NCBI RefSeq assembly: GCF_019733395.1
Contig: NZ_JAIHOO010000001.1
Coordinates: forward strand, 2,914,501-2,978,500
From: Lysobacter sp. BMK333-48F3
GTDB taxonomy: Bacteria; Pseudomonadota; Gammaproteobacteria; Xanthomonadales; Xanthomonadaceae
DNA length: 64,000 bases
Direction of reading: 5' to 3'
Under the pieces are notes generated by a model, which saw only the letters and a program-made list of their open reading frames with translations, searched no databases and was not told the origin of the DNA. Below, piece by piece: positions 791 to 56,541 of this stretch (positions are counted from its first letter, which is position 1; each line of letters begins with the position of its first letter). A program made the translations under genes and the position numbers.

Positions 791-2944
791 ATGCGCCCCC
801 GTGTGTTAGCCCTGTCCCTGGCCTTGTGCGCCACCGCCGCCCAGGCCGATGAAGGCATGTGGATGCCCTCGCAGCTGCCCGATATCGCGCCCCAGCTGCG
901 CGCCGCCGGTTTCCAGGGCGACCCCGCCGGCCTGGCCGAGCTGACCCGCGCGCCGATGAACGCGGTGGTCAAGGTCGGCGGCGCCACCGGCGCCTTCGTT
1001 TCCGCCGACGGCCTGGTGCTGACCAACCACCACGTCGCCTTCGGCGTGATCCAGTACAACGCCAAGCCGGAGCGCGACCTGATCCACGACGGCTACGTCG
1101 CCGCCGACCGCGCCGCCGAGCTGCCGGCCAACCCGGACTTCCGCGTGCTGGTCACCACCGGCTTCGACAAGGTCACCGAGCGCGTGCTGAAGGATGCGCG
1201 CGGCAAGCGCGGCCGCGCCTACTACGACGCGGTCGACGCGGCGACCAAGTCGCTGGTCGCCGAATGCGAACGCGAGGCCGGTTACCGCTGCAGCGTCGCC
1301 AACATGTACTACGGCACCGACTTCTACCTGATCCGCCAGCTCGAGTTGCGCGACGTGCGCCTGGTGTACGCGCCGCCGGACAGCATCGGCAACTACGGCG
1401 ACGAGGTCGACAACTTCGTCTGGCCGCGCCACAGCGGCGATTTCACCCTGCTGCGCGCCTACGTCGGCCGCGACGGCAAGCCGGCCGACTATTCGCCCGA
1501 CAACGTGCCCTACGCGCCGCCGGGGCATCTGCAGATCGCCACCGACCCGGTGCGCGAAGGCGACTACGCCATGCTCGCCGGCTACCCGGGCGTGACCTTC
1601 CGCCACCGCATGGCCTCCGAGTTCGTCCAGCAGATCGAATGGCAGCTGCCGTCGCGGGTGGCGCTGTACGCCGGCATGATCAAGACCATCGAAGCCGCCG
1701 CCGCGGGCGACGCCGAGGCCAAGGTGCGCTACGCCGCCCAGGTCGCCGGCTTCAAGAACACCCTCAAGCGCGCCCAGGGCGAGCTCGACGGTCTGCGCCG
1801 CAGCGATGCGGTGCGGGTGCGCCGCGAGGACGAGGCGGCGATGCTGGCCTGGCTGGGCAAGCAGGCCGACGCGCGCGCGACCCGCGCCGACATCGACGCG
1901 ACCCAGAAGGTGCTCGACGCCGGCGCGGCCACCCGCGAGCGCGACCAGTTGCTGAGCGCGATCCGCAGCCAGGCGCAATTGCTCGGCGCCGCGCTGACCG
2001 TGCAGCGCCTGGCGCTGGAGCGGGCCAAGCCCGACGCCGAGCGCGAATCGGGCTACCAGCAGCGCGACGAGACCCTGATCGCCGGGCGCCTGAAGCAGGT
2101 CCAGCGGCGCTACTGGGCGCCGGTCGAGAAAGACCTGCTGCGCTACCTGCTGCTGCAGTACAAGGCGCTGCCGAAGACTCTGCGGGTGGCCGAAATCGAC
2201 CGCGTGTTCGAGGGCGAGGACGAGGCCGCGCTCAAGCGCAGCATCGACGCGGCGTACGCGCACACCGGTTTCGGCGAAGAGACCGCGCGCTTGCAGGCGA
2301 TGAAGAGCGACGCCAAGGCCTTACAGGCCGCGGAAGACTCGCTGTTGCGCGCCGCCGCGGCGCTGACGCCCGCGTTCGTGCGCATCGAGGAGGAGGGCAA
2401 GGCGCGCGAGGGCGAGCTGTTGCGCCTGCGCCCGGCCTACATGCGCGCCCTGATCGCCTACCGCCATTCGCAGGGCCGCGCGGTCTATCCCGACGCCAAC
2501 TCCACCTTGCGGGTCAGCTACGGCAAGGTCAGCACGATGGACCCGCGCGACGGGGTGAGCTATCGCGCCCTGACCACGGTCCAGGGCATCGTCGAGAAAC
2601 ACACCGGCAGCGCGCCGTTCGACGCGCCCAAGCCCTTGCGCGAGGCGATCGCCAAGGGCGATTTCGGCAGCACCGCCGATCCGCAGCTCAAGACCCAGAC
2701 GGTCGATTTCCTGACCAACCTGGACACCACCGGCGGCAACTCCGGCTCGCCGGTGCTGGACGCCCACGGCCGCCTGATCGGGCTGAACTTCGACAGCAAC
2801 TGGGAAGCGGTCAGCGCCAGCTGGATGTACGACCCGCGCTACAAGCGCGCGATCCACGTCGACATGCGCTACCTGCGCTGGCTGCTGGCCAAGGTGTATC
2901 CGGCGCCGCATCTGCTGAAGGAAATGCGGCTGCCGGCGGAGTGA
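791..2944 (+). CDS. S46 family dipeptidyl-peptidase, DPP11-like (Ser at the specificity position)
   Basis: Secreted or periplasmic serine exopeptidase that removes dipeptides from the N-terminus of oligopeptides. It has 717 residues, the usual S46 length, with a signal peptide of about 19 residues ending AAQA. The chymotrypsin-like half shows the catalytic-His motif TNHHVAFG (about 78-85), WPRHSGDF, and the nucleophile in [10 protein letters not shown] (Ser651). Eighteen residues later, in FDSNWE, position 669 is Ser. In this family Gly at that site marks DPP7 (hydrophobic P1) and Arg or Ser marks DPP11 (Asp/Glu P1), so an acidic preference is inferred. Unlike the next two paralogues, it has no Cys before the catalytic His (NHHV instead of NHHC). 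It is the first of three tandem paralogues on the same strand. Confidence 0.92.
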
Positions 2945-3085
2945 GGCGGGCGAGGAGATCGCGGACCGGAGCCGGGAGTCAGCGGGGTCATGCTTTCTGA
3001 TCTCCTGTCTCCCAAGCGCTATCTCCTTGATTCCATGGCAAGTTAAACTCGCAATCCAATTCTTTTGTCCATCAGGGGTATACGC

Positions 3086-5269
3086 ATGCGCTACACGACA
3101 TTGGCCGCGGCCGTCGCGGCAGGGACGCTGGGCTTGGGCCTGGCCACGACGGCCGGCGCCGTCGAAGGCATGTGGGTGCCGCAGCAGCTGCCGGAGATTT
3201 CCGCGCCGCTGAAGAAGGCCGGGCTCAAGCTCGACGCCAAGCAACTGGCCAACCTCACCGGCGACCCGATGGGCGCGGTGGTTTCGCTCGGCGGCTGCAC
3301 CGCCAGCTTCGTCTCCCCGCGCGGCCTGGTGGTGACCAACCACCACTGCGCCTACGGCGCGATCCAGCTCAACTCGACCGCGCAGAAGAACCTGATGCGC
3401 GACGGCTTCAACGCCGCCACGCCGGGCGAGGAAGTCTCCGCCGGCCCGGCCTCGCGCATCTACGTGCTCGACTCGATCCAGGACGTGACCGCGCAGATCA
3501 AGTCGGCGATCGACGAAGCGGTCGAGCCGATCGACCGCACTCACGCGCTGGAGACGGTGCAAAAGCGCCTGGTCGCCCAGTGCGAAGCCGAGCCGGGCTA
3601 CGGCTGCGAGGTCTACAGCTTCTTCGGCGGCAGCACCTACCGCCTGTTCCGCCGCATCGAGATCAAGGACGTGCGCCTGGTCTACGCGCCGCCCGGCAGC
3701 GTCGGCAACTACGGCGGCGAAGTCGACAACTGGATGTGGCCGCGCCACACCGGCGACTTCTCCTTCTACCGCGCCTACGTCGGCAAGGACGGCAAGCCGG
3801 CCGCGTACGCGAAGGACAACGTTCCCTACCAGCCCAAGCACTACCTGAAGATCGCCGACAAGCCGCTGGGCGAGGGCGATTTCGTCATGGTCGCCGGCTA
3901 CCCGGGCCGCACCAACCGCTACGCCCTGGCGGCCGAGTTCGACGCCACCGAGGACTGGACCTATCCGACCCTGTCCCAGCACTACAAGAACCTGGTCGCC
4001 CTGGTCGGCGAAACCGCGAAGAAGGACCCCGAGATCGGGGTCAAGTACGCCAGCACCGTGCGCGGCTGGCAGAACACGCTGAAGAACTACGACGGCCAGC
4101 TGGAAGGCTTCGGCCGCGTCGGCGTGGCCAAGAAGAAGCACGCCGACGAAGAGGCGGTGCTGGCCTGGTTGAACAAGCGCGGCAAGGCCGGCGCGCCGGC
4201 GCTGGCCGGCCACGCCAAGCTGGTCGAGCAGATCGAAGCCGCCAACGCCCACCGCGACCGCGACCTGGTGTTCTCGCAGCTGCGACGGTTCGGCGTGATC
4301 GCCGCTTCGGGTACCCTGTACCGGCTCGCGGTCGAGCGCGCCAAGCCCGACGCCGAGCGCGAGCCCGGCTACCAGCAGCGCGATCTGCCGTCGATCAAGG
4401 CCGCGCTGGAGCAGATGGAGCGCCGCTACGATCCGCGCATGGACCGCGAGCTGCAGGCCTATTGGCTGCGCGAGTACGTCAAGCTGCCGGCCGGCGAGCG
4501 CATCGCCGAACTCGACCGTTGGCTCGGCGGCAGCGACGAGAAGGCGATCAAGCGCGGCCTGGACAAGCTGGCCAAGACCAAGCTGGGCGGCACCAAGGAG
4601 CGCCTGGCGCTGATCGACGACGACCGCGCCGCGATGGACAAGAGCCGCGATCCGGCGATCCAGCTGGCCAAGGCGCTGTACCCGGCGGTGCTGCGCCTGG
4701 AGCAGGAGAGCAAGGCCCGCGAAGGCGAGGCGCTGGTCGCGCGCCCGGCCTACCTGCAGGGCGTGATCGACTACCGCAAGAGCAAGAAGCAGGCGGTCTA
4801 CCCCGACGCCAACTCGACCCTGCGCATCACCTTCGGCAACGTCAAGGCCTACACCAAGCTCGACGGCAGCAAGCAGGCCGCGTTCACCAAGCTCGAGGAA
4901 GTCGCGGCCAAGGCCACCGGCGAGGAGCCCTTCGACGCGCCGCAGAGCCTGCTCGACGCGATCGCCGGCAAGCAGTACGGCGGCCTGGCCGACAAGCGCC
5001 TGAAGACGGTGCCGGTGAACTTCCTCTCCGACCTGGACATCACCGGCGGCAACTCCGGCTCGCCGGTGCTCGACGGCGAGGGCAAGCTGGTCGGCCTGGC
5101 CTTCGACGGCAACTGGGAATCGGTGAGCTCGAACTGGCTGTTCGACCCGACCATGACCCGGATGATCTCGGTCGACCAGCGCTACATGCGCTGGATCATG
5201 CAGGAGGTCTACCCGGCGCCGCAGCTGCTGACCGAGCTGGGCGTGCCGGCGCAGAAGCCGAAGAAGTAA
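3086..5269 (+). CDS. S46 family dipeptidyl-peptidase, DPP7-like (Gly at the specificity position)
   Basis: Secreted S46 serine dipeptidyl-peptidase of 727 residues. The ATG at 3086 (MRYTTLAAAVAAG) was chosen because AGGGG lies 8-10 bases upstream and a clean signal peptide follows (cut after TAGA). The in-frame TTG at 3065 would only add a non-signal-like extension. Motifs are GGCTASF, TNHHCAYG, WPRHTGDF and [10 protein letters not shown] (Ser657). The specificity residue, 18 further on, is Gly675 in FDGNWE, the DPP7 signature for bulky hydrophobic P1 residues. Two Cys before and at the catalytic-His loop (GGC, NHHC) may form a disulfide. A Rho-independent terminator follows at about 5299-5329. 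Confidence 0.93.
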   Translation: MRYTTLAAAVAAGTLGLGLATTAGAVEGMWVPQQLPEISAPLKKAGLKLDAKQLANLTGDPMGAVVSLGGCTASFVSPRGLVVTNHHCAYGAIQLNSTAQKNLMRDGFNAATPGEEVSAGPASRIYVLDSIQDVTAQIKSAIDEAVEPIDRTHALETVQKRLVAQCEAEPGYGCEVYSFFGGSTYRLFRRIEIKDVRLVYAPPGSVGNYGGEVDNWMWPRHTGDFSFYRAYVGKDGKPAAYAKDNVPYQPKHYLKIADKPLGEGDFVMVAGYPGRTNRYALAAEFDATEDWTYPTLSQHYKNLVALVGETAKKDPEIGVKYASTVRGWQNTLKNYDGQLEGFGRVGVAKKKHADEEAVLAWLNKRGKAGAPALAGHAKLVEQIEAANAHRDRDLVFSQLRRFGVIAASGTLYRLAVERAKPDAEREPGYQQRDLPSIKAALEQMERRYDPRMDRELQAYWLREYVKLPAGERIAELDRWLGGSDEKAIKRGLDKLAKTKLGGTKERLALIDDDRAAMDKSRDPAIQLAKALYPAVLRLEQESKAREGEALVARPAYLQGVIDYRKSKKQAVYPDANSTLRITFGNVKAYTKLDGSKQAAFTKLEEVAAKATGEEPFDAPQSLLDAIAGKQYGGLADKRLKTVPVNFLSDLDITGGNSGSPVLDGEGKLVGLAFDGNWESVSSNWLFDPTMTRMISVDQRYMRWIMQEVYPAPQLLTELGVPAQKPKK

Positions 5270-5298
5270 CGCGCGCTTCCTCGCTGCGTTCGATGCAG

Positions 5299-5329
5299 AA
5301 ACGCCGGCTGCCTAGCGGCCGGCGTTTTT
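5299..5329 (+). terminator. Rho-independent terminator after the DPP7-like gene
   Basis: Stem AACGCCGGC (5300-5308) pairs with GCCGGCGTT (5318-5326) around a 9-base loop and is followed by TTTTTCTTT. It lies 30 bases after the stop codon of the second S46 gene, so the third S46 gene probably has its own promoter. Confidence 0.8.
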
Positions 5330-5358
5330 CTTTGCGCGGCTGGCCAAGTGCGGCTTTC

Positions 5359-5506
5359 GTAGGAGCGGCGTGAGCCGCGACATCCGAAGCGGTGTACGCA
5401 AGCGCCGCCGGGCTGCGGACGCCAGGCGCACGCGGTACCGTGCGAGGTTTCGGTTGACGACGTGGTATTTCACCGCGTCGGATGTCGCGGCTCACGCCGC
5501 TCCTAC
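5359..5506. repeat. Dispersed extragenic palindrome, copy A
   Basis: The left arm starts TAGGAGCGGCGTGAGCCG (5360 on) and its reverse complement ends the element at 5484-5506. The arms continue inward with ATCCGAAGCGGTG against CACCGCGTCGGAT (one mismatch), giving a potential stem of about 36 bp around a loop of about 75 bases. Three further copies are in the window (7952, 42261, 49559), all outside genes. It resembles the REP-type palindromes common in xanthomonads and pseudomonads. It has no coding content. Confidence 0.85.
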
Positions 5507-5555
5507 AGAGACAGGTTTCGGGAGGACTCGGAAAGAGTCCATGCTTTTGCTTTTG

Positions 5556-5586
5556 CCAATCCCCAATCCCCAATCCCCAATCCCGG
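5556..5586 (-). repeat. G-tract heptad repeat (GGGGATT)n
   Basis: Four CCCC/CCC tracts separated by AAT on the plus strand, so the minus strand reads (GGGGATT)n. Related G-tract repeats occur at about 34617-34637 and 58657-58685, each also downstream of a gene end. Four runs of three or more G could form a quadruplex. The function is unknown. Confidence 0.6.
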
Positions 5587-5745
5587 CATTAACGGAAATT
5601 TAGCTTCCGCGTTCGCGCAACCTGAGCGTTCGGTAAAGCCGCGCTTCGGCCCGCTGCCGCTCGATCGCCGCCGGCCGCATCCGGCATGGCCTTGGCCGAA
5701 ACAGCCGAGCTAGACTCGTCCTCCCTCGGTCGATCGGACGTCTGG

Positions 5746-7941
5746 ATGCGATACACGGTGCTGGCCCGCGCGGTGGCTCTGGCAGGAGGCTTGTTCGGCT
5801 TGGCGGCCTGGAACGGCCCCGCGCACGCGGTCGAGGGCTTGTGGACGCCGTCGCAATGGCCCGAACTGGCGCCGCAGCTCAAGCAGGCCGGGCTGCGCGC
5901 CGCGCCCAAGCAACTGGCGCAATGGGCCGACCCCAAGGGCGATCCGCTCGGCGCGGTGGTGCCGCTGGGCAGTTGCACCGCCAGCTTCGTCTCGCCCAAG
6001 GGCCTGCTGCTGACCAACCATCACTGCGCGCTCGGCGCGATCGCGCTCAACTCCACCGCGCAGAAGAACCTGCGCCGCGACGGCTTGCGCACCGGCACCA
6101 ACAACGACGAGGTGTCGGCCGGGCCGAACGCGCGCATCTTCGTGCTCGACGCGGTGCAGGACGTGACCGAGCGGGTGCGCAGCGCGCTGGGCGCCGCGGC
6201 CGATCCGCTGGCGCGGATCGCCGCGCTCGACGCGCTGGAGCGGCAGTTGATCGACGAGTGCCAATCCGAGCCCGGTTATGCCTGCCGTCTGTACAGCTAC
6301 AGCGGCGGCAATCGCTACCAGCTCCAGCGCAACATCGAAATCCGCGACCTGCGCCTGGTCTACGCGCCGCCGGACAGCATCGGCAACTTCGGCGGCGAGA
6401 ACGACAACTGGATGTGGCCGCGCCACACCGGCGACTTCGCCTTCTACCGCGCCTACGTCGGCCAGGACGGCAAGCCGGCGGCGTTCGCGATCGACAACGT
6501 GCCCTATCAGCCCAAGCGTTGGCTCAAGATCGCCGACAAGCCGCTGGGCGCCGGCGATTTCGTCGCCGTGGCCGGCTTCCCCAGCCTGACCAACCGCTAT
6601 GCGATGGCCGACGATTTCGCCGCCAATGCCGAGTGGACCTATCCGACCGTGGCCGGGCATTACCGCCGCCTGGCCGCGTTGGTCGAAGCCGAGACGCGCA
6701 AGAACCCCGAGATCGCCGCCAAGTACGCCTCGACCGTGCGCGGCTGGCAAGGCGCGGCGATCAACTACGACCGCCAGGTCGAAGGCTTGCGCCGCGCCGG
6801 CGCGGCCCAGGCCAAGCGCGAGGAGGAAACCGCGCTGCTGGCCTGGCTGCGCAAGCAGGGCGCGGCCGGCGAGCCGGCGTTGGCCGCGCACGCGCGCCTG
6901 CTCGAACTCGGCGCGCAATCGCGCGCGGTGCGCGAGCGCGAGCTGATCCTGAGCCAGTTGTTCGCTACCGGCTCGCTCGGCGCGGCGACCCAGCTTTACC
7001 GCGCTTCGATCGAACGCGCCAAGCCCGATGCGCAACGCGAGTCGGGCTATCGCGAGCGCGATGCGGCCGGCTTCGAGAACGGCCTGCGCCAGGCCGACCG
7101 CCGCTCCGATCCGCGCGTGGACCGGGCGCTGTACGACTATTGGCTGCGCGAATACCTCAAACTGGCCAAGGAACAGCGCGTCGCCGCGCTCGACCAATGG
7201 CTGGAAGGCGAGGACGACAAGGCGGTCAAGCGCGCGCTCGACCGGCTGGGCAAGTCGCGCCTGGGCACGCCGGAGCTGCGCGCCAACTGGCTCAAGGCCG
7301 ACCGCGCGGCGTTCGAGAAGAGCAAGGACGGCGCGATCCAGTTCGCGATCGCGGCGATGCCGACCCTGCTGCAGTCCGAGCGCGAGATCCGCAACCGCGC
7401 CGGCGAGACCCTCGGCGTGCGGCCGGCCTACCTCAAGGCGCTGGCCGATTACCGCAAGAGCCAGGGCCGCGTCGCCTATCCCGACGCCAACGGTTCTCTG
7501 CGGTTGAGCTATGGCAGCGTGACCGCCTACACCAAGGACAGCGGCGCCAAGCAATTGCCGTTCACCCGGGTCGAGGAGATCGCCGCGCGCCACACCGGCA
7601 GCGAGCCGTTCAAGGCGCCACCGGTGCTGCTGGAGGGCATCCGCACCAAGCGTTACGGCGCGTTGGCCGACAAGCGCCTGGGCTCGTTGCCGGTGAACTT
7701 CCTGTCCGACCTGGACATCAGCGGCGGCAATTCCGGCTCGCCGGTGCTGGACGCGCAGGGCAAGCTGGCCGGGCTGGTGTTCGACAGCAATCTGGAATCG
7801 GTGAGCGCGAGCTGGGCGTTCGACCCGGCGACGACGCGGACGATTTCGGTCGACCAGCGCTACCTGCGCTGGATCATGCAGGAAGTGTTCCCGGCGCCGC
7901 GCCTGCTGGCCGAAATGGGCGTCCCCGCCGGCGGCAAATAA
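5746..7941 (+). CDS. S46 family dipeptidyl-peptidase, DPP11-like (Ser at the specificity position)
   Basis: Third tandem S46 peptidase, 731 residues from the ATG at 5746 (MRYTVLARAVALAGG), which gives a signal peptide ending at AHA. The longer in-frame start at 5686 adds 20 residues unlike a signal peptide. Family motifs are GSCTASF, TNHHCALG, WPRHTGDF and [10 protein letters not shown] (Ser663). The specificity position, 18 residues later, is Ser681 (FDSNLE), so DPP11-like cleavage after acidic residues is inferred. The Trp that follows in both paralogues (NWE) is Leu here (NLE), so substrate preference may differ again. It aligns end to end with the second copy, indicating gene duplication. 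Confidence 0.92.
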   Translation: MRYTVLARAVALAGGLFGLAAWNGPAHAVEGLWTPSQWPELAPQLKQAGLRAAPKQLAQWADPKGDPLGAVVPLGSCTASFVSPKGLLLTNHHCALGAIALNSTAQKNLRRDGLRTGTNNDEVSAGPNARIFVLDAVQDVTERVRSALGAAADPLARIAALDALERQLIDECQSEPGYACRLYSYSGGNRYQLQRNIEIRDLRLVYAPPDSIGNFGGENDNWMWPRHTGDFAFYRAYVGQDGKPAAFAIDNVPYQPKRWLKIADKPLGAGDFVAVAGFPSLTNRYAMADDFAANAEWTYPTVAGHYRRLAALVEAETRKNPEIAAKYASTVRGWQGAAINYDRQVEGLRRAGAAQAKREEETALLAWLRKQGAAGEPALAAHARLLELGAQSRAVRERELILSQLFATGSLGAATQLYRASIERAKPDAQRESGYRERDAAGFENGLRQADRRSDPRVDRALYDYWLREYLKLAKEQRVAALDQWLEGEDDKAVKRALDRLGKSRLGTPELRANWLKADRAAFEKSKDGAIQFAIAAMPTLLQSEREIRNRAGETLGVRPAYLKALADYRKSQGRVAYPDANGSLRLSYGSVTAYTKDSGAKQLPFTRVEEIAARHTGSEPFKAPPVLLEGIRTKRYGALADKRLGSLPVNFLSDLDISGGNSGSPVLDAQGKLAGLVFDSNLESVSASWAFDPATTRTISVDQRYLRWIMQEVFPAPRLLAEMGVPAGGK

Positions 7942-9347: not shown

Positions 9348-10910
9348 ATGAAAGTACTGGCCTGCGATGGCATTCATGAAGACGGTCTGGCCCTGTTCCG
9401 CGAAGCGGGCTGGGACGTCGTCGTATCCGACCCGATCAAGGATCCCGCCGCGCTGGCCCAGGCGCTGCACGGGGTCGACGCCGTGCTGGTGCGTTCGGCG
9501 ACCAAGGTGCCGGCCGAGGCGCTGGCCGATGCGGCGCAACTGCGGGTGATCGGCCGCGCCGGCGCCGGCGTGGACACCATCGACGTCGATGCCGCCACCG
9601 AGCGCGGCATCGCGGTGATGAACGCGCCCGACGGCAACACCCTGGCCGCGGCCGAGCACGCGATCTCGCTGCTGTTCGCCCTGGCCCGCCACATTCCGCG
9701 CGCCGACGCCGGCATGAAGGCCGGCGAATGGCCCAAGGCCGGCCTCACCGGCTTCGAACTGGAAGGCAAGAAGCTCGGCGTGATCGGCCTGGGCCGCATC
9801 GGCGGCACGGTCGCGCGCAAGGCCCAGGGCATCGGCATGGAAGTCGCCGCGCACGATCCCTTCCTGCCCGCGTCCGCGGCCGGCAAGGGCAGCGTGCCGC
9901 TGAAGACCCTGGACGAGCTGCTGGCCTGGGCCGACGTGGTCACCCTGCACATCCCGCGCACCAAGGAAACCACCAACCTGCTCTCGGAAGCGCGCATGCG
10001 CGCGATGAAGAAGGGCGCCTACCTGATCAACGCCGCGCGCGGCGGCCTGGTCGACGAAGCCGCGTTGCTGGCGCTGATCGAGGAAGGCCACATCGCCGGC
10101 GCCGCGCTCGACACCTTCGTCACCGAACCGCTGCCGGCCGATTCGCCGCTGCGCGCCAATCCCAAGCTGATCCTGACCCCGCACCTGGGCGCCTCGACCA
10201 GCGAAGCGCAACAGGCGGTCAGCACCATCCTGGCGCGACAGATCATCGATTTCGCCGCCACCGGCGCGGTCGCCGGCTGCGTCAACCTGCCGCCGCTGAC
10301 CGCCGAGGCGGCGCGCGAAGTCGGCCCATGGATGCCGCTGATGTCCTCGCTCGGCCGCCTCGCCGCGCGCCTGATCCCGGCGCCGACCCGGCTGGAGATC
10401 ACCTACGCCGGCCGCACCGACGCGCTCGACACGCGCCCGCTGACCCGGCTGCTGGTCGCCGCGCTGCTCGGCACCGCCTCGGGCCGGGTGACCCCGGTCA
10501 ACGCGCTGCAGGAAGCCGCCGCGCGCGGCCTGACCGTGGCCGAAACCCTGGGCGGCGACGGCGACGGTTTCGACCGCCTGCTCAAGCTGCGCGTGGTCGG
10601 CGAACAGCGCACCCGCGAGATCGAAGCGACCTTGCACCGCGGCCCACGCGTAGTCCGCCTGGACGGCGTCGAAATCGAATTCGATCCGCAGGCGCACGTG
10701 CTGCTGCTGCGCAACGAGGACCGCCCGGGCATGATCGGCGCGGTCGGCTCCAAGCTCGGCGCGGCCGGCGTCAACATCGTCAACTTCGCCCTCGGCGCGG
10801 CCGGCGACGGCCAGGCGCGCGCGGCGATCACTGTCGATCGCCCGGTCGACGACGAACAGCTCGCCGCGTTGCGCGCGACCCCCGGCATCCTCTCTCTGGC
10901 GCAGGTCTGA
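9348..10910 (+). CDS. serA: D-3-phosphoglycerate dehydrogenase, long form
   Basis: First enzyme of phosphorylated serine biosynthesis: 3-phosphoglycerate + NAD+ to 3-phosphohydroxypyruvate. It has 520 residues, the long class. The order is substrate-binding segment, NAD-binding Rossmann core with GLGRIGG (147-153), catalytic Arg region NAARGGLVDE (about 225-235), LTPHLGAS catalytic His, then an intervening domain and a C-terminal ACT domain (LLLRNEDRPGMIGAVGSKL) that usually mediates serine feedback. The start at 9348 has TGGAG upstream. The open frame extends further 5' but not in a protein-like way. The next gene starts 2 bases after the stop codon. Confidence 0.96.
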   Translation: MKVLACDGIHEDGLALFREAGWDVVVSDPIKDPAALAQALHGVDAVLVRSATKVPAEALADAAQLRVIGRAGAGVDTIDVDAATERGIAVMNAPDGNTLAAAEHAISLLFALARHIPRADAGMKAGEWPKAGLTGFELEGKKLGVIGLGRIGGTVARKAQGIGMEVAAHDPFLPASAAGKGSVPLKTLDELLAWADVVTLHIPRTKETTNLLSEARMRAMKKGAYLINAARGGLVDEAALLALIEEGHIAGAALDTFVTEPLPADSPLRANPKLILTPHLGASTSEAQQAVSTILARQIIDFAATGAVAGCVNLPPLTAEAAREVGPWMPLMSSLGRLAARLIPAPTRLEITYAGRTDALDTRPLTRLLVAALLGTASGRVTPVNALQEAAARGLTVAETLGGDGDGFDRLLKLRVVGEQRTREIEATLHRGPRVVRLDGVEIEFDPQAHVLLLRNEDRPGMIGAVGSKLGAAGVNIVNFALGAAGDGQARAAITVDRPVDDEQLAALRATPGILSLAQV

Positions 10911-26400: not shown

Positions 26401-26898
26401 ATGAGCACCCACACCGCCTGCACCGATCCCCAGCACCACGTCCACGACGGCGACGCCTTCGTGCACGAGGTCGAACGGGCCTGCGAGCAGCGCGGCCTGC
26501 GGCTGACCCCGATCCGCGCCCACGCGTTGCGCCTGATCGCCGACGCCGGCCGGCCGATGAAGGCCTACGACCTGCTCGACCGGATGAAGGCGACCCACGA
26601 CGCCGCGGCGCCGCCGACCATCTACCGCGCGCTGGATTTCTTGCTCGAGCACGGCTTCATCCACAAGCTGGCCTCGATCAACGCCTTCGTCGGCTGCCAT
26701 CACCCGGGGGGCGCCCAGCACGCGGTGCCGTTCCTGATCTGCGACAACTGCCAGTCGGCGACCGAACTGGAAGACGAGCGCATCGTCGACCTGCTGGAAG
26801 CCCGCGCGCGCGCGCTGGGCTTCGTGCCGCAGGCGCAGACCCTGGAAGTGCACGGCATGTGCGCGGACTGCGTGCAGGCGAAAGCGGCGCAGGGGTGA
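26401..26898 (+). CDS. zur: Fur-family zinc uptake regulator
   Basis: A 165-residue winged-helix metalloregulator that represses zinc-uptake genes when zinc is replete. N-terminal DNA-binding domain with LTPIRAHALRLI and PTIYRALDFLLEHGFIH, then a dimerisation domain. Structural zinc cysteines are CDNC (114-117) and CADC (154-157). Sensory-site candidates are C99, H100 and H101 and an unusual His-rich N-terminus (QHHVHDGDAFVH). The Cys pairs and the absence of the HHHDH Fur site point to Zur. A matching operator is at 32906-32920, 6 kb away. Confidence 0.93.
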   Translation: MSTHTACTDPQHHVHDGDAFVHEVERACEQRGLRLTPIRAHALRLIADAGRPMKAYDLLDRMKATHDAAAPPTIYRALDFLLEHGFIHKLASINAFVGCHHPGGAQHAVPFLICDNCQSATELEDERIVDLLEARARALGFVPQAQTLEVHGMCADCVQAKAAQG

Positions 26899-27011: not shown

Positions 27012-27220
27012 ACGCGCTCCTTTTTTTCAAAGAAGGGAAGAGCGGTGGCGAAGGGGAGGCTGCATGGGTCTTTCTCTCTCGACCTCTCTATCTCTCTCGA
27101 CGGGCGAGGAAGTTCGTCCTTCCGTCGTAGGCCGACAACAAACTCGCCCCCTTTGAAAAAGGGGGCTGCGCCTTGCGCCGTCCGAGGTCGGGTTGGTCCG
27201 GCTGGCGCGGGGGATTTGCT
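27012..27220. mobile_element. MITE-like element, degenerate copy 1
   Basis: This copy has the right terminus (GGGGGATTTGCT, ending 27220), the inner hairpin CCCCCTTTGAAAAAGGGGG near 27140, and a decayed left hairpin (TTTTTTTCAAAGAAGGGAA). Its interior, from AGCGGTGG at 27041, is a diverged direct repeat of the interior of the next copy. It has no coding content. Confidence 0.65.
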
Positions 27221-27247
27221 TTTGCTTTCGGTGTTGCGCGAAGCAAG

Positions 27248-27481
27248 AGCAAATCCCCCCTAGCCCCCCTTTTTCAAAGGGGGGAATTTTTCAAAGGGGG
27301 GAACAGCGGTGGTAAAGGAGAGGCTGCATTGGCTCTCTCTCGACCTCTCTATCTCTCTCGACGGTCCAGGAAGTTCGTCCTTCCGTCGTAGGCCGACAGC
27401 GAACTGGCCCCCTTTGAAAAAGGGGGCTGCGCCTTGCGCCGTCCGAGGTCGGCCTGGTCCGGCTGGCGCGGGGGATTTGCT
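27248..27481. mobile_element. MITE-like element, copy 2
   Basis: The left end AGCAAATCCCCCC plus hairpin CCCCCTTTTTCAAAGGGGG starts at 27248. The right end has CCCCCTTTGAAAAAGGGGG followed by about 45 bases and GGGGGATTTGCT, ending at 27481. The termini are inverted repeats and there is no transposase. It lies between convergent genes (zur and the MFS locus). Its right-hand hairpin is also the breakpoint of the neighbouring duplication. Confidence 0.75.
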
Positions 27482-27518
27482 CTTTTCAAACGGGGCACTG
27501 CAAGATCGGCGAGCGCGA

Positions 27519-27930
27519 CTACGCTTTCGCCGTCGCCAATCCATCCAGCGACGGCCTGGCTTCGCGGATCGGCAGGTTCGCCGCCGCGGCCAGCAGCGCC
27601 AGGACGATGTCGGCGTACCACATCCAGGTGTAGTCGCCGAACTTCGCCATCGCCAGCCCGCCGAGCCAGGCGCCGAAGAAGCCGCCGATCTGGTGCGAGA
27701 GCAGGGTCAGGCCGAACAGCGTGCCCAGGTAGCGCGGGCCGAACAGTTTGCCGACCAGGCCGGCGGTCGGCGGCACCGTGGCCAGCCAGGTCACGCCCAG
27801 GCCGGCAGCGAACAGATAGAAGGTCAATGGCGTCGGCGGCGAGACCAGATAGATCGCGATCAGCGCGGCGCGGCTGGCGTACATGCCCGCCAACAGGTAC
27901 TTCATCCGGTAGCGCTGGCCGAGCCAGCCG
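27519..27930 (-). pseudogene. MFS transporter 3' fragment, direct copy
   Basis: The last 136 codons of the MFS gene at 28486-29724, identical as read, with its stop codon at 27519-27521. Upstream the reading frame runs into the inverted copy, so there is no native start or N-terminal half. It is a by-product of the rearrangement, not a functional gene. The long open frame across the junction (27519-28511) is a chimera. Confidence 0.85.
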
Positions 27931-28282
27931 CGCCGCGCTGATCGCGATCTATCTGGTCTCGCCGCCGACGCCATTGACCTTCTATCTGTTCGCTGCCGGC
28001 CTGGGCGTGACCTGGCTGGCCACGGTGCCGCCGACCGCCGGCCTGGTCGGCAAACTGTTCGGCCCGCGCTACCTGGGCACGCTGTTCGGCCTGACCCTGC
28101 TCTCGCACCAGATCGGCGGCTTCTTCGGCGCCTGGCTCGGCGGGCTGGCGATGGCGAAGTTCGGCGACTACACCTGGATGTGGTACGCCGACATCGTCCT
28201 GGCGCTGCTGGCCGCGGCGGCGAACCTGCCGATCCGCGAAGCCAGGCCGTCGCTGGATGGATTGGCGACGGCGAAAGCGTAG
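27923..28282 (+). pseudogene. MFS transporter 3' fragment, inverted copy
   Basis: The same MFS 3' end in the opposite orientation, ending at the TAG at 28280-28282. It encodes the last roughly 119 residues (RAALIAIYLVSPPTPLTF onward) with no proper start. It is the left arm of the long palindrome. Confidence 0.85.
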
Positions 28283-28319
28283 TCGCGCTCGCCGATCTTG
28301 CAGTGCCCCGTTTGAAAAG

Positions 28320-28448
28320 AGCAAATCCCCCGCGCCAGCCGGACCAGGCCGACCTCGGACGGCGCAAGGCGCAGCCCCCTTTTTCAAAGGGGGCTGCGCC
28401 TTGCGCCGTCCGAGGTCGGCCTGGTCCGGCTGGCGCGGGGGATTTGCT
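28320..28448. mobile_element. Palindromic MITE-end composite at the rearrangement centre
   Basis: Two right ends of the MITE-like element meet head to head at 28384: AGCAAATCCCCC at 28320 and its complement ending at 28448, with CCCCCTTTTTCAAAGGGGG in the middle. It is the symmetry centre of the 460-bp-arm palindrome and was created by the rearrangement, not by a separate insertion. Confidence 0.75.
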
Positions 28449-28485
28449 CTTTTCAAACGGGGCACTGCAAGATCGGCGAGCGCGA

Positions 28486-29724
28486 CTACGCTTTCGCCGT
28501 CGCCAATCCATCCAGCGACGGCCTGGCTTCGCGGATCGGCAGGTTCGCCGCCGCGGCCAGCAGCGCCAGGACGATGTCGGCGTACCACATCCAGGTGTAG
28601 TCGCCGAACTTCGCCATCGCCAGCCCGCCGAGCCAGGCGCCGAAGAAGCCGCCGATCTGGTGCGAGAGCAGGGTCAGGCCGAACAGCGTGCCCAGGTAGC
28701 GCGGGCCGAACAGTTTGCCGACCAGGCCGGCGGTCGGCGGCACCGTGGCCAGCCAGGTCACGCCCAGGCCGGCAGCGAACAGATAGAAGGTCAATGGCGT
28801 CGGCGGCGAGACCAGATAGATCGCGATCAGCGCGGCGCGGCTGGCGTACATGCCCGCCAACAGGTACTTCATCCGGTAGCGCTGGCCGAGCCAGCCGGCG
28901 GCGAGGCTGCCGGCGACGTTGAACAGGCCGATCAGGCCCAGCGCCATCGCCGAGACGTTGTCGGACAAGCCGCACAGCGCGATCTCGCCGGGCAGGTGGG
29001 TGACCAGGAAGGCGATGTGGAAGCCGCAGGTGAAGAAACCCACGTGCAGCATCCAGTAGCTCGGCTCGCGTGCGGCGATGCGCAGTTGTTCGCGCAGGCC
29101 GATGCCGGCCGGCGCCGCGCTCGCCGTCGCCGATGCGGGCGATTCGCGCCGGCGCAGCGGCCAGGCCAGCGGCAGCGTCGCCACCGCGGCCGCGGCCAGG
29201 GTCCACATCGCCGCCATCCAGCCGGCCGCGGCGATCACCGCCTGCACCAGCGGCGCGAACACGAACTGGCCCATCGAGCCGCCGGCGTTGATCACGCCCG
29301 AGGCCATCGAGCGCTTTTCCGCGGGAATGCGCTGCGCGGTGGCGCCGATCAGGATCGAGAAGCTGCCCGCGCCCGCACCGGCCGCGCCGAGCACGCCCAG
29401 GGTCATCAGCAGGCCCCATTGCGAGGACACGAACGGAGTCAGGCCCATGCCGGCGATCAGCAGCACGCCGCCGAACACTAGGACTCGGCCCGGGCCGCGC
29501 TGGTCGGCCAGCGCGCCGAACACCGGCTGCACCGCGCCCCAGACGAACTGGCCGATCGCCAGGGCGAAGCTGATTTCGGCGATGCCCAGGCCGGTGCTGT
29601 GGCCGATCGGTTTGACCAGCAGGCCCTGCGATTGGCGGATGCCCATGGTGATCATCAGCATCGCCGTGGCGGCGAGCAGCAACGGCCAGTAGGACGCGGG
29701 TTTGGCGGAGGACGTGGGAGGCAT
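28486..29724 (-). CDS. MFS transporter, intact copy
   Basis: A 412-residue major-facilitator permease with 12 predicted transmembrane helices: two six-helix halves around a cytoplasmic loop near 195-215 (RRRESPASATASAAP). The N-half has GQFVWGAVQPVFGALADQRG, the MFS motif A region. Overall similarity is to the oxalate/formate antiporter or monocarboxylate-type MFS group, but the substrate is unknown. A MarR regulator lies upstream on the same strand and may control it. The last 136 codons are duplicated twice downstream. Confidence 0.88.
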   Translation of the reverse strand: MPPTSSAKPASYWPLLLAATAMLMITMGIRQSQGLLVKPIGHSTGLGIAEISFALAIGQFVWGAVQPVFGALADQRGPGRVLVFGGVLLIAGMGLTPFVSSQWGLLMTLGVLGAAGAGAGSFSILIGATAQRIPAEKRSMASGVINAGGSMGQFVFAPLVQAVIAAAGWMAAMWTLAAAAVATLPLAWPLRRRESPASATASAAPAGIGLREQLRIAAREPSYWMLHVGFFTCGFHIAFLVTHLPGEIALCGLSDNVSAMALGLIGLFNVAGSLAAGWLGQRYRMKYLLAGMYASRAALIAIYLVSPPTPLTFYLFAAGLGVTWLATVPPTAGLVGKLFGPRYLGTLFGLTLLSHQIGGFFGAWLGGLAMAKFGDYTWMWYADIVLALLAAAANLPIREARPSLDGLATAKA

Positions 29725-39682: not shown

Positions 39683-39885
39683 AGCAAATCCCCCCTGGCC
39701 CCCCTTTTTCAAAGGGGGGAAAGGCAGGGCACCGTTGCCTGGGTTCTCACCTCTGACGCGCTGCCGCGCTGTTCCCCTCCCTTTGAAAAAGGGGGGAAGG
39801 CAGGGCACCGTTGCCTGGGCTCTCATCTCTGACGCGCTGCCGTGCTGTTCCCCCCTTTGAAAAAGGGGGGTAGGGGGGATTTGCT
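39683..39885. mobile_element. MITE-like element, copy 3
   Basis: Left end AGCAAATCCCCCC then CCCCCTTTTTCAAAGGGGG; right end CCCCCTTTGAAAAAGGGGG then GGGGGGATTTGCT. The inverted termini are about 38 bp. The interior is a tandem duplication of about 75 bp (GGCAGGGCACCGTTGCCTGG...), the first copy ending in a third hairpin. No coding capacity. It fills most of the gap between the convergent hutF and ogt genes. Confidence 0.8.
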
Positions 39886-39942
39886 CTGGCGTTTGCTCCT
39901 GCCCTGCTTGCGCTTACCTGGATCCGCCCCGCGCACGAAACC

Positions 39943-56251: not shown

Positions 56252-56524
<273 letters not shown>

Positions 56525-56541
56525 CCTAAGCTCCTAAGCCC

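Follow-up and report, generated by a model that had tools for sequence, protein, structure and literature searches.

The last part of an MFS transporter gene in Lysobacter sp. BMK333-48F3 is present in three copies arranged in the order direct-inverted-direct (D1 - I - D2) between unique flanks, and the perfect 460-bp palindrome that this arrangement creates cannot be a chance product. The structure lies in the window, i.e., the 64,000-nucleotide stretch of the chromosome that was analysed. The explanation that we put first, though tentatively, is that it is a real chromosomal scar, a small inverted triplication or tandem inversion duplication, which would persist in a host with no recognisable SbcCD. 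From the sequence and its comparison with relatives we infer that living cells contain the structure, in which order and direction the template switches ran, and that it persists for lack of SbcCD.

Architecture of the triplicated gene end and its two turns

The triplicated unit consists of the last 412 bp of the MFS gene and the 100 bp downstream of it, and the gene itself (28486-29724, minus strand, PF07690) is unbroken despite the triplication. The direct copies 27419-27930 and 28386-28897 are identical in 512/512 bases at an offset of 967, and the arms 27923-28382 and 28386-28845 are exact reverse complements of each other (460/460 bases, 0 mismatches) around a centre at 28383-28385. A further perfect inverted pair, 27407-27878 and 27923-28394, has arms of 472 bp and a spacer of 44 bp. 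An earlier note, made from the letters of this DNA, had described a palindrome with 460-bp arms and a 3-base centre, an exact direct repeat, and a triplication of the MFS 3′ end; all three descriptions proved correct to the base, and the PF07690 gene was found intact. The features are as follows.

26401-26898, plus strand: FUR-family gene, convergent neighbour (domain match; relatives' loci)
27073-27484, no strand: REP-like intergenic block, with two 151-bp direct copies 261 bp apart (95%)
27408-27426, no strand: outer-flank copy of the centre hairpin, loop GAA (sequence)
27419-27930, plus strand: outer direct copy D1, 512 bp, a shortened MFS 3′ end with 100 bp downstream (0/512 differences from 28386-28897)
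27923-27930, no strand: 8-bp overlap GCCAGCCG at the junction of D1 and I, turn 1 (junction overlap)
27923-28394, minus strand: inverted copy I, pairing with 27407-27878 (472 bp, 44-bp spacer) and, as far as 28382, with 28386-28845 (460 bp, 3-bp spacer)
28375-28393, no strand: palindrome centre, turn 2, a REP-like hairpin CCCCCTTT-TTC-AAAGGGGG, whose 37-nt core folds as a single 17-bp stem (-22.8 kcal/mol)
28386-28897, plus strand: inner direct copy D2, which runs into the intact MFS gene (sequence identity)
28486-29724, minus strand: intact MFS transporter gene, 412 aa (PF07690, E 7.3e-40)
28838-28845, no strand: left arm CGGCTGGC of the inverted pair at turn 1 (sequence)
28890-28897, no strand: right arm GCCAGCCG of the same pair, 44 bp from the left arm

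At both turns the sequence offers a short reverse-complementary homology with a short spacer, of 8 bp with a 44-bp spacer at the first and of 9 bp with a 3-bp spacer at the second. The 8-bp microhomology claimed for one junction is present as the overlap GCCAGCCG at 27923-27930, and the short hairpin claimed for the other could be specified as a 9-bp overlap (AAAGGGGGC) inside the centre hairpin, where the loop of three bases is TTC, as against GAA in the outer copy of the hairpin. Random points in the window fell at a turn of this kind (stem of at least 8, spacer of at most 44) in 9/400 cases. The pattern of the centre hairpin, CCCCCTTTNNNAAAGGGGG, has 196 exact matches in the genome and its reversed-pattern control has 0, which marks the hairpin as a REP-like dispersed element. 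Clusters of such hairpins also occur at 39699-39890 and 56289-56525 of the window. The REP-like hairpin is not supported as a sufficient cause of the palindrome, since the loci of about 3 kb around 30 other such hairpins (the first 30 of the 196 in genome order, several of them overlapping) contain no such palindrome; the hairpin alone is therefore insufficient. Elsewhere in the window, at 791-7941, lie three paralogous ORFs in tandem (717, 734 and 751 aa), of which the first is a full-length match to Peptidase_S46 (PF10459).

The MFS gene region was matched in 20/20 genomes of the genus, the own genome included, and the best named match of the MFS protein is that of Lysobacter antibioticus HS124 (95%). 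In both of the relatives' loci that were read, those of HS124 and of the genome labelled G008, the MFS stop abuts the stop of the FUR-family gene and there is no triplication; the longest inverted arm in the scanned loci, mostly the MFS loci of relatives, was 47 bp. The check in related strains that had been proposed earlier thus returned a single segment in two relatives, from which it follows that the structure in the window is derived.

The structure was probably made by fold-back template switching, with the turns at inverted repeats that already existed. A growing strand would copy the MFS 3′ end, switch templates at the 8-bp pair CGGCTGGC/GCCAGCCG, to either the opposite strand or itself, copy back about 460 bp as far as the REP-like hairpin, fold back there, and copy forward again through the segment into the MFS gene; D1, I and D2 would be made in this way and the MFS gene would be left whole. 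The product would then persist in a host that has no recognisable SbcCD with which to cleave the hairpin. Compared with the outer hairpin, the centre has its loop in the opposite orientation. This fits a rightward-moving strand that turned first at the 8-bp pair, copied back through the hairpin and folded on the copy that it had just made; it also fits a leftward-moving one that invaded the opposite template. The reading of the segment order as two template switches, put forward in the earlier note, fits the anatomy well and agrees with the derived state of the structure, but the premise that had been linked to it, the destruction of the palindrome by SbcCD, probably does not hold in this host.

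SbcCD in the host and similar structures elsewhere in its chromosome

Long palindromes are unstable because SbcCD cuts them, and it had been supposed that this one should have been destroyed. No match to SbcC or SbcD over the family cut-off was found in the 20 genus genomes, the cut-off for SbcC being a strict one. For SbcD (TIGR00619) the own genome has no match and the genus one in 20, below the cut-off, compared with 13/14 in the control; the SbcD C-terminal domain (PF12320) is found in 0/20 genus genomes, own included (control 6/14), and in 1/149 genomes of the family (control 4/14). For SbcC (TIGR00618), 0/20 genus genomes lie over the strict cut-off, which 1/14 controls pass, and 20/20 have weak partial matches (21.8 bits in the own genome). 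The host may have a divergent Mre11-type nuclease. Literature searches gave no paper treating SbcCD together with Lysobacter, and nothing that bears on the absence of SbcCD or palindromes in Xanthomonas. Plasmid-borne small inverted triplications are reported to be lost in wild-type E. coli and to be maintained when sbcC, sbcD or rep is mutated (PMC13334657), and the absence of SbcCD could allow persistence here. Loss of the 5′-nuclease of PolA is not supported as a FEN1-like cause, PolA being full length in 20/20 genomes, own included; no cause was therefore found.

A sample of the own chromosome, 58 roughly evenly spaced 20-kb stretches (1.16 Mb of the 5.22-Mb contig), was scanned for inverted arms that match perfectly over 120 bp or more and are separated by at most 70; 6/58 stretches contain such arms. 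The locus L140 (arms 284/293) is a plain direct-inverted-direct structure adjoining a PALP-family gene, which we take to be cysM-like, and L147 (1650-2790) is an array of hairpin units of about 160 bp, some direct and some inverted, that includes a perfect 396-bp palindrome. At the other four loci, the base pairs that lie between the flank matches in the alignment with the relatives G008 and G007 have given way to copies of the flanks in inverted and direct orientation (L234, 114 bp; L149, 219; L238, 103; L244, 30). L234 (arms 174/612) lies upstream of cytidylate kinase. L149 (10466-11455, arms 242/360) is a fold-back between two TPM-domain genes in which the 219 bp of G008 are missing; the second TPM domain is without its first part (match from profile position 20/125), and the end of the preceding TPM-domain gene has apparently been lost as well. 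In L238 (8799-9546, after a subtilase gene, arms 183/161), the inverted piece consists of two flank copies fused with a 14-bp overlap, which come from the ends of the subtilase gene and of an OmpA-family gene; the latter has no in-frame ATG, GTG or TTG before the TTG at 9396, and so has probably lost its start. L244 (1074-3035, arms 126) is in rho, where G007 and G008 have 30 nt and the patch adds 237 nt, i.e., 79 codons, in frame and without a stop; it is built of inverted and direct copies of rho's own coding sequence and lies in the 5′ part, ahead of the conserved Rho domains. Among the 158 relatives' loci searched, none contained an ortholog of the genes at L238 or L149.

The measurable junction overlaps are of 6, 8, 9, 14 and 18 bp, and the other turns have spacers of 0-70 bp instead. 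Single-base differences between copies occur at 4/7 loci: L140 has a 1-base indel, L234 a substitution, L147 1 mismatch in 122 bp, and L238 1 in 196 bp if the arms are traced across its 70-bp spacer. The copies in the window and in L149 show no differences, and the pieces found in L244 are all exact.

With the same scan routine, no arms of this kind were found in 60 stretches (1.2 Mb) of nine congeners, or in 20 stretches of the one family genome of 149 that has the SbcD C-terminal domain (G148). The scans of relatives took arms from 40 bp and spacers up to 300, and their smaller matches were of 59 bp with 4 mismatches, 41 bp with 0 (19-bp spacer) and 43 bp with 2; further ones were of 99 bp with 9 mismatches and 68 bp with 6 (spacers 156 and 160). 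None of these matches reaches the limits set for the own chromosome. The one-sided P that all events fall in the own genome is 0.014 for six events and 0.06 for four. The congeners, too, are without a recognisable SbcD and yet without such structures in the sample, which means that something else differs in this genome or that the structures are not real.

Genes were all kept at 4/6 scored loci (the window; L140; L234, where no broken frame was seen; and L244, where the rho frame is kept) and damaged at the other two, L149 (TPM-domain) and, apparently, L238 (OmpA-family); L147 was left out of the six as an array without a clear ancestral state. The P of sparing genes in at least 4/6 loci is 0.044 if sites are random and 0.27 if they are anchored at hairpins, values that rest on a crude GC-position gene caller (80% coding) applied to 57/58 own stretches, one partly masked stretch being omitted, and on a chance of 0.45, within an assumed range of 0.3-0.6, that an in-frame patch stays open. 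By the same crude gene calls, hairpins are intergenic in 54% of cases, and sparing therefore cannot tell a real event from an artefact; as proof of selection it was rejected on the P of 0.27.

Scaled up, 6/58 stretches would correspond to some 25 recent small inverted triplications or fold-back patches in the chromosome of a bacterium without a recognisable SbcCD, the 79-codon rho patch among them. It is possible, though we are inclined to doubt it, that these are a natural bacterial counterpart of the mutator state in which yeast FEN1 mutants form small inverted triplications (SIT), with near-perfect palindromes of about 300-1,230 bp being tolerated.

A chromosomal scar or an artefact

The concern that the palindrome may be an artefact, raised from the start, is justified, and an artefact must now account for several loci, for overlaps of 6-18 bp and for single-base differences at 4/7 of the loci. 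Its sources would be fold-back chimeras formed during amplification or library preparation, or local re-assembly or gap filling, at spots rich in hairpins and GC, all within one genome project, and the true locus would have a single MFS 3′ end. We regard this as a serious possibility, at nearly even odds with a real scar, and would neither adopt nor dismiss it. The strongest point in its favour is that the structures occur only in this assembly among the ten Lysobacter-group genomes sampled: with 0/60 stretches in congeners that are likewise without SbcD over the cut-off, the excess seems peculiar to this genome, a pattern to be expected of an artefact. The arms are nearly identical throughout, free of mutations in the window and with few elsewhere; the inserted pieces all come from nearby, and at four loci 30-219 bp of the relatives' sequence have no counterpart, their place being taken by flank copies from a distance of no more than about 650 bp. 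The truncated TPM-domain genes of L149 and the apparently startless OmpA-family gene of L238 point the same way, as do a gene sparing no better than a P of 0.27 for hairpin-anchored sites and the two tiny extra contigs in the assembly (2,388 and 351 bp). Usual assembler overlap lengths exceed 6-18 bp, and chimeric reads would presumably have had to outcompete the true path at several junctions of each locus. Together with the short overlaps, the single-base differences between copies at 4/7 loci and the kept frame of the rho patch make the strongest case against an artefact, and re-traversal by the assembler without chimeric molecules is disfavoured by the overlaps and these differences. The single 5.22-Mb contig suggests, moreover, that long reads spanned the 1 kb in question. 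The literature search identified nothing on the sequencing method of this genome; fold-back artefacts are reported to occur in long-read data (PMC12870357).

Two further explanations would account for the structure in other ways. The insertion of a mobile element that had captured the MFS 3′ end agrees with the REP-like repeats that border the locus, but it is very unlikely, given that the extra 967 bp consist only of copies of the adjacent 512 bp and the hairpin, which leaves no room for a transposase, and that the other matches in the own genome (40/436 candidates scored) are almost all of at most about 80 bp and fall on the repeat element. Least probable of all is a functional inverted element, which might, for example, act on the MFS gene through a long antisense or hairpin RNA, or serve the two convergent genes as a terminator: its position 3′ of the MFS gene would suit such a role, and read-through transcripts would be expected to self-fold, yet it is not conserved in the relatives' MFS loci that were scanned or read, the identity of its arms indicates youth and not constraint, and similar structures adjoin the unrelated cytidylate kinase, PALP-family, rho and TPM genes.

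If the template-switch scar is real, a family in which SbcD is found in 1/149 genomes would be a natural test bed for the making, keeping and removal of inverted triplications, and could show, through cases such as the rho patch, whether fold-back triplications feed coding novelty. If it is not, the assembly, and perhaps others made likewise, holds false palindromes by the tens, and inverted-repeat surveys that include them would be misled.

Comparison with known systems

The tandem inversion duplication of Salmonella was reportedly described by Kugelberg et al. in 2010 as a direct-inverted-direct structure at short inverted repeats, arising under selection for lac amplification. The window shows the same order at short inverted repeats, but no selected gene is evident in it. 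ODIRA requires a replication origin inside the unit. The product of ODIRA, as it is described in PMC4689423, is likewise an interstitial inverted triplication.

For the inverted triplications of starving E. coli, PMC3161906 presents an MMBIR/template-switch model with two inverted switches at microhomologies of 3-30 bp. There, 22/90 junctions are reported to lie at REP, to which the REP-like centre of the palindrome in the window may be compared, whereas the embedded inverted duplications are given as 5.2-42.6 kb, beyond the reach of one fork (PMC3161906). The unit in the window is smaller than 1 kb, and a single fork could therefore suffice.

The small inverted triplications of yeast rad27/FEN1 mutants and of cancers, reported as DUP/INV/DUP structures (PMC13334657), share their order with the window, and also the two short spacers (44 and 3 here, a median of 30 in the SIT data given there) and the short reverse-complementary junctions (8 and 9 here, a peak at 6 in SIT). 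The window differs in the length of its copies, 512/460 compared with reported SIT medians of 148/160 (PMC13334657), and in its setting, a bacterial chromosome for which no FEN1-type defect is known. Provided that it is present in cells, the unit in the window belongs to the known kind of inverted triplications.
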